A stretch of DNA of 64,000 bases from Streptomyces spirodelae (GTDB lineage: Bacteria > Actinomycetota > Actinomycetes > Streptomycetales > Streptomycetaceae): positions 1 to 64,000 of the forward strand of contig NZ_JAFFZN010000012.1 of NCBI RefSeq assembly GCF_017676385.1. Direction: 5' to 3'. The stretch's first letter is position 1. Every line of letters starts with the position of its first letter. The notes beneath the pieces are model-generated. The model worked only from the letters and a program-made list of their open reading frames with translations. It was not told where the DNA came from and ran no database searches. Positions 4,809 to 56,311 of this stretch are shown piece by piece. The position numbers were made by a program, and so were the translations under genes.

Positions 4809-4887
4809 GACCCCCGGTACCTGACACGGCCGGGACTGCCGCCGGTGCCTGACACGGCCGGTGCAGGAACAACAAAGGAGAGACACC

Positions 4888-54190: not shown

Positions 54191-54427
54191 CTAATGGCCG
54201 CGGCACAAGCGCAACAGCGTGAGCGCGAGATCGCGGCCCGGGGCGCCGAGCTCGGTGCTGTAGTGGCCGAGGATCTCCATCTCGCGGGCCAGGTTCACCC
54301 GCCGTCCGCCGCTGCTCTCCGACAGCGTCATACGGTCGCGCACGAGCGCGATCAGCCGGGCGTCGAGCGCGTCGATCCGCTCCCGCATCGCCGCTTCCGT
54401 ACCGGTGCTGATGTTCGTGGTGCTCAT
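54191..54427 (-). CDS. Small AroQ-type chorismate mutase
   Basis: 78 residues from ATG 54427, with GAGGAG about 8 bases upstream. An all-helical chorismate mutase pattern: MRERIDALDARLIALVRDRM (helix 1 with the Arg and Asp residues), then RVNLAREMEILGHYSTELGA, and a C-terminal helix with ALTLLRLCRG. It would convert chorismate to prephenate for Phe and Tyr. It is shorter than typical AroQ domains (about 90 residues) but of the size usual for this Streptomyces family. Preceded by an apparent aromatic-amino-acid attenuator; divergent from guaA. Confidence 0.82.
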   Translation of the reverse strand: MSTTNISTGTEAAMRERIDALDARLIALVRDRMTLSESSGGRRVNLAREMEILGHYSTELGAPGRDLALTLLRLCRGH

Positions 54428-54496: not shown

Positions 54497-54525
54497 GCGC
54501 CCCGGGCCTGACCGGCCCGGGGCGC
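54497..54525 (-). terminator. Attenuator terminator hairpin before chorismate mutase
   Basis: On the minus strand GCGCCCCGGGCC and GGCCCGGGGCGC form a perfect 12-bp stem with a 5-base loop, followed by TTGTGC. It lies between the leader peptide stop and the chorismate mutase start. Its 5' arm (complement of 54512-54520) can alternatively pair over 9 bases with the leader (complement of 54581-54589). Confidence 0.85.
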
Positions 54526-54551
54526 CTGGGGAAGTTCGTCTGTGGCTTCTC

Positions 54552-54623
54552 TCACACAGAACGACGACCACGGCAGCCGGCCGGGCCGGTGCCATAGGTA
54601 AACCACACGTTCTGCATGCGCAT
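54552..54623 (-). CDS. Aromatic leader peptide of the chorismate mutase attenuator
   Basis: 23 codons from ATG 54623: M-R-M-Q-N-V-W-F-T-Y-G-T-G-P-A-G-C-R-G-R-R-S-V. Codons 7, 8 and 10 are TGG, TTT and TAT: all three aromatic residues, with TTT and TAT very rare in such GC-rich genomes. CATACT (complement of 54630-54635) lies 6 bases before the ATG, so the message probably begins at or next to the start codon. ATG 54617 is an in-frame alternative. A stem TCTGTG/CACAGA (54539-54560) overlaps the stop codon. I infer a translation-sensing leader that controls the downstream terminator. Confidence 0.7.
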   Translation of the reverse strand: MRMQNVWFTYGTGPAGCRGRRSV

Positions 54624-54629
54624 GTGCCC

Positions 54630-54658
54630 AGTATGCCACCGCTCCGGCTGCGGGTCGG
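54630..54658 (-). promoter_or_regulatory. Promoter of the chorismate mutase leader
   Basis: On the minus strand CCGACC (complement of about 54653-54658) and CATACT (complement of 54630-54635) are spaced 17. Transcription would start near 54623, at the leader ATG. Confidence 0.5.
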
Positions 54659-54724: not shown

Positions 54725-56311
54725 GTGGCTTCCAACCCGTCCGAGAGCAGCCCTCCGGACACCGTTCTCGTCGTCGACTTCGGCGCGCAGTACGCCCAGC
54801 TCATCGCGCGCCGCGTGCGCGAGGCGCGGGTGTACAGCGAGATCGTGCCGTCGACCATGCCGGCCGCCGAGATGCTCGCCAAGAACCCGAAGGCGATCAT
54901 CCTCTCCGGCGGTCCCTCGTCCGTGTACGCGGAGGGCGCGCCCTCCCTCGACCGTGCGGTCTTCGAGGCCGGCGTCCCGGTCCTCGGCATCTGCTACGGC
55001 TTCCAGCTGATGGCCACCACGCTCGGCGGCAAGGTGGACAACACCGGCGGCCGGGAGTACGGCCGTACGCAGCTGACCGTCTCCAAGCCGTCCTCAGCGC
55101 TCTTCGAGGGCACACCGGACGAGCAGCAGGTGTGGATGTCGCACGGCGACGCCTGCTCGGCCGCGCCCGAGGGCTTCGCCGTCACCGCGTCCACGGACCT
55201 GGTGCCGGTGGCGGCTTTCGAGAACGAGGAGCGGAAGCTGTACGGCATCCAGCACCACCCCGAGGTGATGCACTCCACATACGGCCAGCAGGTGCTGGAG
55301 CACTTCCTGTACCGGGGCGCGGGGCTGTCCCCCTCGTGGACGACGGCGAGCATCGTCGACGAGCAGGTGGCGGCGATCCGCGCGCAGGTCGGCAGCAAGC
55401 GCGCCATCTGCGGACTGTCCGGCGGGGTGGACTCGGCGGTGGCGGCGGCCCTCGTGCAGCGCGCCATCGGTGATCAGCTCACCTGCGTGTACGTCGACCA
55501 CGGACTGATGCGCAAGGGCGAGACCGAGCAGGTCGAGAAGGACTTCGTAGCGGCGACCGGCGTCCAGCTCAAGGTCGTGGACGCGGCCGACCGCTTCATC
55601 GACGCGCTGGCCGGGGTGTCGGACCCGGAGCAGAAGCGCAAGATCATCGGCCGGGAGTTCATCCGGGTCTTCGAGCAGGCGCAGGCTCAGATCGTCGCCG
55701 AGGCGCCGAGCGACGAGCCGGTGGCCTTCCTGGTGCAGGGCACGCTCTACCCGGACGTGGTGGAGTCCGGCGGCGGCACCGGCGCGGCCAACATCAAGTC
55801 GCACCACAACGTGGGCGGGCTCCCCGAGGACCTCGAGTTCGAACTGGTCGAACCGCTGCGCAAGCTGTTCAAGGACGAGGTGCGGATGGTCGGGCAGGAG
55901 CTCGGGCTGCCGGACGAGATCGTCCACCGCCAGCCGTTCCCGGGCCCGGGCCTGGGCATCCGGATCGTCGGCGAGGTCACCCGCGAGCGGCTGGACCTGC
56001 TGCGCGAGGCGGACGCCATCGCCCGCGAGGAGCTGACGGCCGCGGGTCTCGACCGGGACATCTGGCAGTGCCCGGTGGTGCTGCTCGCGGACGTGCGCAG
56101 CGTCGGCGTGCAGGGCGACGCGCGGACCTACGGTCACCCGGTGGTGCTGCGTCCGGTCTCCTCCGAGGACGCGATGACGGCCGACTGGTCGCGGCTCCCC
56201 TACGACGTGCTGGCCCGGATCTCGACGCGGATCACCAACGAGGTCGCCGAGGTCAACCGCGTCACGCTGGATGTGACCAGCAAGCCCCCGGGGACCATCG
56301 AGTGGGAGTGA
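54725..56311 (+). CDS. guaA: GMP synthase (glutamine-hydrolysing)
   Basis: 528 residues. Class I amidotransferase domain (about 15-210): catalytic Cys in [17 protein letters not shown] and His/Glu in [15 protein letters not shown]-PPase domain with [16 protein letters not shown], then a C-terminal dimerisation domain ending [11 protein letters not shown]. It aminates XMP made by GuaB. GTG 54725 gives the N-terminus; divergent promoter region shared with the chorismate mutase leader. Confidence 0.97.

Follow-up and report, generated by a model that had tools for sequence, protein, structure and literature searches.

Organization of the locus

The window, by which we mean the whole stretch of 64,000 nucleotides from Streptomyces spirodelae that was analysed, contains a chorismate mutase gene on the minus strand that is preceded by a short leader open reading frame and a series of hairpins. 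The features are as follows.

54725-56311, plus strand: divergent neighbour, the GMP synthase gene guaA
54630-54635, minus strand: -10-like hexamer CATACT, predicted to give a leaderless start, with the leader ATG 6 nt further on
54552-54623, minus strand: leader open reading frame of 23 codons, MRMQNVWFTYGTGPAGCRGRRSV (ATG at 54623-54621, TGA stop at 54554-54552)
54594-54605, minus strand: TGG TTT ACC TAT, candidate codons for regulation (conserved for Phe and Tyr, limited to some clades for Trp)
54568-54597, minus strand: hairpin A (1:2); the Tyr codon opens its 5' arm
54568-54589, minus strand: region 2, predicted partner of the terminator 5' arm on a Trp, Phe or Tyr pause
54537-54563, minus strand: hairpin B, around the leader stop codon
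54497-54525, minus strand: perfect 12-bp terminator-like hairpin, whose 5' arm is region 3
54191-54427, minus strand: chorismate mutase gene of the Rv0948c family (ATG at 54427), with a 7-residue internal deletion relative to its relatives

An earlier note on this DNA had described a 23-codon minus-strand frame carrying TGG-TTT-ACC-TAT, and the sequence agrees with it base for base (TGG 54605-54603, TTT 54602-54600, ACC 54599-54597, TAT 54596-54594). The CATACT that it had placed 6 nt 5' of the leader ATG is likewise there; the hexamer is invariant in an alignment of 28 Streptomyces loci, with a spacer to the start of 6 nt in 21/28 and 7 nt in 7/28, and from this we infer a transcription start that would leave the leader without a 5' untranslated region. 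A consensus scan found no sigma-70-type promoter at the locus. TTT and TAT, which the same note had called rare, account for 0/32 Phe codons and 3/31 Tyr codons, respectively, in two neighbouring genes of the window. A known Rfam element is ruled out, since no family matched the locus at its gathering score (up to E 10 there are three weak, unrelated hits, each on the opposite strand). Elsewhere in the window, at 4813-4866 on the plus strand, Rfam recognizes an L17-Actino-Proteobacteria ribosomal protein leader (RF03132; 43.7 bits, gathering 34.9).

The chorismate mutase gene has GAGGAG at 54443-54438 ahead of its ATG. Its product matches Pfam CM_2 weakly (16.9 bits; cut-off 27). Rv0948c, a solved intracellular chorismate mutase of the AroQ-delta subclass, is hit at 3.7e-14 by an intact homologue of the genus. 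A homologue is present in 195 of the 199 sampled genomes of the genus. The seven residues absent from the window protein include an arginine that is invariant in 22 diverse homologues and aligns with residue 46 of Rv0948c, presumably a catalytic residue (R46); the window's own enzyme is probably impaired. The same genome encodes a second CM_2 protein (82.6 bits; G000:C14:55082-55318, L137), and no Phe/Tyr leader was seen in the 500 bases upstream of its gene.

The leader is conserved within Streptomyces and its order

Reading the sequences upstream of the mutase gene, we saw the leader at 28/30 first loci of the genus, usually with the peptide MLTHxTFLFTYGNRPxGCHGRAA. The two exceptions are a locus whose contig ends 191 bases upstream (L004) and one that keeps CATACT and the ATG and has lost the aromatic codons (L020). 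In an even sample (40 genomes of the genus drawn evenly, 39 with the mutase gene), a script recovered the leader in 38/39; the genome that it missed, G239, has a match at 6.0e-32 to R1, a covariance model that we built from 28 leader elements of the genus. In 4/38 (G087, G095, G133, G236) the script chose an upstream TTG start, with the usual ATG inside. All 38 leaders read F-T-Y-G or F-S-Y-G; Trp precedes Phe in 3/38, and in 4/38 a different frame is read after FTYG, which alters the end of the peptide. Divergent members frequently read FWFTYG (L066-L077) or have FLFTYGTGRSGRHG (L078-L095). At E<=0.01, R1 has matches in 284 of the order's 293 genomes, mostly below 1e-12 within the genus; several matches outside the family are weak, and some of the weakest span the terminator only.

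Codon use was counted in 111 distinct Streptomycetaceae elements, taken from 128 loci with duplicates dropped. The pattern that selected them requires TT[TC] together with TA[TC], TT[TC] or CA[CT] and so allows alternatives; TTT was nevertheless used in 107/111 and TAT in 108/111 elements. The earlier note had the leader sense all three aromatic residues. Phe and Tyr are indeed common to the leaders, but Trp is confined to 3/38 sampled leaders and part of the divergent group, being frequent among L066-L077; we therefore reject a general role for Trp, and on these sequences sensing of three aromatics is clade-specific at most. Trp sensing would also be odd, because the mutase draws chorismate away from Trp. 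Fold z-scores are strongly negative (window element, -4.18; relative L006, -7.36), and because the sequence, frame and position of the leader are conserved in addition, the element is beyond chance.

Phe/Tyr leaders precede the same gene in other actinomycete families

Leaders with Phe and Tyr codons (RFFYGYR, FYGGR, FFYG) also precede the same mutase family in other families, typical peptides being VLNMQRRFFYGYRPAVPVV (family f6, genus g12), MESSRTSRPGALLPPFYGDRARSPLHR (family f20) and VTSAATRFFYGYRPPVAVAAV (L103), so that the arrangement of codons and stems extends past the genus. Our first rule (strict -10 TANNNT, at most 45 codons) found two or more aromatics in 5/87 loci. The rule was loosened after we had read the sequences (looser -10, 60 codons), and the identical rule was applied to shuffles and reverse complements. 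Under it, at least three aromatics within five codons of a leaderless-looking short open reading frame occurred at 33/87 loci outside the genus (controls: 0.3% of 3480 shuffles and 0/87 reverse complements), and at least two at 64/87 (controls: 4.3% and 3/87), a count in which some two-aromatic cases are possibly chance and from which leaders readable by eye (e.g., L105, L119, L191) are missing. Three or more aromatics were found at 23/25 loci of f6 g12; family f3 adds three loci with RFFYGYG or RFGYGF. The script found no leader in ten loci of the f6 genera g39, g81, g86, g128 and g143, nor ahead of four second gene copies in f20 g72. In those four f20 g72 genomes the second chorismate mutase (L108, L110, L210, L211) is more distant and has no Phe/Tyr leader; the first copy does carry one.

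The codons and peptides bear on a reading in which the leader reports translation trouble in general, such as ribosome-targeting antibiotics or nascent-chain arrest, and in which a ribosome held up at the rare TTT/TAT codons or by the FTYG peptide would open the terminator whatever the amino-acid supply. TTT and TAT are rare and are kept at the nucleotide level, as such a sensor would have it, and the mycobacterial whiB7 leaders are upstream-ORF attenuators according to the accessible parts of two reports (PMC4128351, PMC13236596). The peptide, however, varies by family (FTYG, FFYGYR, FYGGR, FFYALTG) with Phe/Tyr as the common element, and the gene downstream encodes an enzyme of the Phe/Tyr branch, which makes a general sensor very unlikely.

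The leader is linked to the chorismate mutase gene

Linkage was assessed by searching the named genome collection with a 20-base DNA pattern of the mycobacterial leader, which gave 119 loci among the matches listed. In 114/119 of these, the same chorismate mutase lies within 900 bases downstream; in a subset of 80 of the loci the count was 77. The hosts among the matches listed include Mycobacterium szulgai, M. scrofulaceum, Mycolicibacterium vaccae, several Pseudonocardia, Actinomycetospora lutea, a Jatrophihabitans MAG and Rhodococcus sp. HNM0569. Among the other five, L273, L297 and L353 have at most 116 bases of contig left, and L346 has 533. The remaining one, L308 in a Desulfobacteraceae MAG, has the leader pattern and no chorismate mutase in 4,153 bases downstream; it is a true miss and probably a chance match.

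We also re-examined 13 genomes that had earlier lacked a match to the leader or the gene. Seven of them (G229, G253, G393, G423, G103, G152, G215) have no gene match at E<1e-20 or at E<1e-6 and no strong leader match over the full length either. In G114 and G139 the leader is there and a contig end interrupts the gene, the G276 gene begins 150 bases from such an end, and G202, G204 and G213 have the gene together with a divergent leader recognized by eye.

A conserved terminator and a small RNA would be equally expected if the short transcript or its peptide acted in trans, like peTrpL of Sinorhizobium (PMC7298713, from the part of that report available), with the hairpin merely ending a small RNA. 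Such a role is disfavoured by the adjacency of leader and gene at nearly all loci among the matches listed, by the lack of the leader in genomes that have no gene and by the shift of frame at the peptide end in some sampled Streptomyces leaders, and we regard it as extremely unlikely.

The terminator-like hairpin covaries and has a poor T-tract

The perfect 12-bp hairpin that had been reported between the leader and the mutase gene is present at 54525-54497, with arms GCGCCCCGGGCC/GGCCCGGGGCGC at 54525-54514 and 54508-54497 and the loop at 54513-54509. Across the 111 Streptomycetaceae elements, 97.1% of the cells are paired and 67 cells are changed on both sides; four covariation measures were reached by 0/500 shuffles and the fifth by 1/500. 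The T-tract after the window hairpin is poor (CTTGTGCAT): a consensus scan found no terminator with 5 Ts at the window locus, and among the elements measured, 94 of the 111, none has a T run above 4.

Such weak U-tracts would suit a leader whose hairpins act on Rho access or on translation initiation in place of intrinsic termination, as would two mycobacterial loci, L163 and L173, that keep the leader open reading frame with the terminator hairpin deleted or changed. On the other hand, it is a GC-rich hairpin that covaries to this degree, and it ends 69 nt before the mutase start codon, away from the ribosome-binding site. We consider action through Rho or initiation unlikely.

Hairpin A and the predicted antiterminator

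Without a ribosome, the RNA of the window is predicted to fold into hairpin A, hairpin B and the terminator, to which L006 adds a longer outer stem. Inside Streptomycetaceae, hairpin A varies too little to reveal covariation, and in the alignment two pairs out of 12 do not form in 49 and 51 of the 111 rows. For hairpin A across families, 33 representatives yielded 30 hairpins, the most stable candidate per locus being kept (no hairpin was found for L105, L134 and L205), and 26 of these were aligned (L106, L118, L119 and L207 were left out). When folded from the Tyr codon on, 28/30 hairpins open within the first four bases, with stem sequences that differ; the opening comes later in L106 and L119, and L124 takes another fold. 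In the alignment, 80.1% of the cells are paired vs. 71.2% in shuffles, 25 cells vs. 12.7 are changed on both sides, and the covariation score is 0.300 vs. 0.154, with 0/500 shuffles as high for each of the three; double-changed pairs and pair types were not above shuffles in these 26 sequences. Thus, as to the conservation and covariation of the stems that the earlier note had named as support, the terminator and, between families, hairpin A covary, but the antiterminator pairs do not clearly do so.

The earlier note had pointed to a 9-mer just after the aromatic codons, CCGGCCCGG (54589-54581), as complementary to the terminator. It is the exact reverse complement of CCGGGCCGG (54520-54512). 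As a general antiterminator, however, the 9-mer was rejected: the outer part in relatives is CGGCCC/GGGCCG, followed by further short helices. In our models the antiterminator is a longer interrupted helix, and the quoted 9-mer is its clade-specific outer part. With Tyr in the A site and an assumed ribosome footprint of 13 nt from the first A-site base, only 3/9 bases of the 9-mer would be free, and pairing would fall to a segment further 3'.

When stalled states were folded under this assumed footprint and with the terminator 3' arm absent, the sequence freed by a Phe or Tyr stall paired with the terminator 5' arm. At least 8 pairs between this arm and upstream sequence were predicted in 111/111 elements with Phe in the A site and in 110/111 with Tyr, as compared with 8/111 with the stop codon there. 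With shuffled upstream sequence, 8 pairs were reached in 920/1110 (Phe) and 824/1110 (Tyr) folds. At 12 or more pairs, the Phe stall gave 109/111 real vs. 548/1110 shuffled; 45 of the 1110 shuffles in this control fold as well as the real sequence. The predicted antiterminator thus stands only modestly above its shuffled controls and is the weakest part of the model; its pairs (2:3) show no clear covariation, 15 to 114 of 500 shuffles being as high. In truncated RNA free of ribosomes, region 2 pairs with region 3 through at least 6 pairs in 99/111 elements, and the untranslated state is therefore not clearly terminating. Among five hand-picked elements of other families, the predicted exchange between hairpin A, antiterminator and terminator is clear in four and weak in the f20 element L122.

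Proposed mechanism

The locus has one mark of an attenuator, a short open reading frame whose codons correspond to what the pathway under control makes, here Phe/Tyr codons before a chorismate mutase gene. These codons, the start, the terminator hairpin and the predicted mutually exclusive folds are conserved in the genus, which supports the ribosome-mediated attenuation proposed at the outset by the earlier note. Taken together, the sequence comparisons indicate that a leaderless leader peptide very probably controls transcription of the mutase gene by classical ribosome-mediated attenuation in response to Phe and Tyr. With ample charged tRNA-Phe and tRNA-Tyr, the ribosome would reach the leader stop codon and cover or pass region 2, upon which the terminator hairpin would form and transcription would stop ahead of the mutase gene. 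Under a shortage of Phe or Tyr, the ribosome would stall on the TTT/TAT codons; since the stall would prevent hairpin A, region 2 would be free to pair in vivo with the terminator 5' arm, and RNA polymerase would read through.

We further suggest, as a tentative extension that we hold at somewhat less than even odds, that the attenuator is ancient and has been inherited together with the mutase since before streptomycetes, mycobacteria and the other families split, and that it is a graded sensor of Phe and Tyr to which some Streptomyces clades have added Trp. With hairpin A starting at the Tyr codon, Phe and Tyr stalls would free different lengths of the antiterminator.

Relation to known systems

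Enteric bacteria control a chorismate mutase gene through a Phe-coding leader peptide and a terminator, the pheL-pheA attenuator; there the mutase is fused to prephenate dehydratase, and the leader contains many Phe codons and is preceded by a ribosome-binding site. The locus described here resembles it in having a Phe-coding leader and a terminator-like hairpin ahead of a chorismate mutase gene, but here the mutase is a free-standing enzyme, and the leader appears leaderless with codons for Phe and Tyr. The aroR leader of Corynebacterium glutamicum is leaderless. Its Phe-Tyr-Phe peptide stands before the DAHP synthase gene aroF in the part of the report available (PMC4046766), and it is thus, like the window leader, an actinobacterial Phe/Tyr leader of the aromatic pathway, whereas the window leader precedes a chorismate mutase gene. 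In the window genome the DAHP synthase lies on another contig than the chorismate mutase, and no Phe/Tyr leader was found in the ~200 bases upstream of the class II DAHP synthase gene.

The trp attenuators of Streptomyces have a leaderless leader peptide and competing hairpins, as predicted here, but as far as the accessible parts of two reports go (PMC1262725, PMC8079986), they have consecutive Trp codons and precede another gene. A weak R1 match in the window's own genome (L033; G000:C71:113571-113712, minus strand; E 0.2) has a leader, MHAHSTMNWWWPARTAARHDARMH, with three Trp codons, by which we take it to be a trp attenuator; it is divergent from a class II DAHP synthase match at C71:113849 (+). 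Another weak own-genome match, L034, was taken as chance. The leaderless polycysteine short open reading frames of mycobacteria resemble the window leader in that their codons specify what the downstream pathway makes (PMC4633059, available in part), but the codons are for Cys, and a 2005 analysis, in the portion available, saw no conserved terminator hairpin there (PMC1262725). PepX of S. venezuelae was considered as the leader peptide and rejected for its different sequence and neighbours.

Altered regulatory codons were without effect in the comparable ilvB leader of S. coelicolor, according to the available portion of the same work (PMC1262725), and this counts against the attenuation reading, as does the probable impairment of the window's own mutase. 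Within what was accessible of earlier surveys, Seliverstov 2005 did not see conserved structures for other amino-acid pathways (PMC1262725), and the table for S. lividans TK24 has eight attenuators, none before a chorismate mutase gene (PMC8079986). The open-access library that was searched yielded no earlier description of a Phe/Tyr attenuator before chorismate mutase.

The element is of a known kind, a leader-peptide attenuator, and is notable for the breadth of its conservation and for its association with a free-standing mutase. The branch to Phe and Tyr begins with chorismate mutase, which competes for chorismate with the routes to Trp, folate, siderophores and antibiotics. A conserved, seemingly undescribed switch at this point in streptomycetes and mycobacteria would offer a testable case of coupling between leaderless translation and transcription in actinobacteria, and it would give a handle for the engineering of aromatic products.
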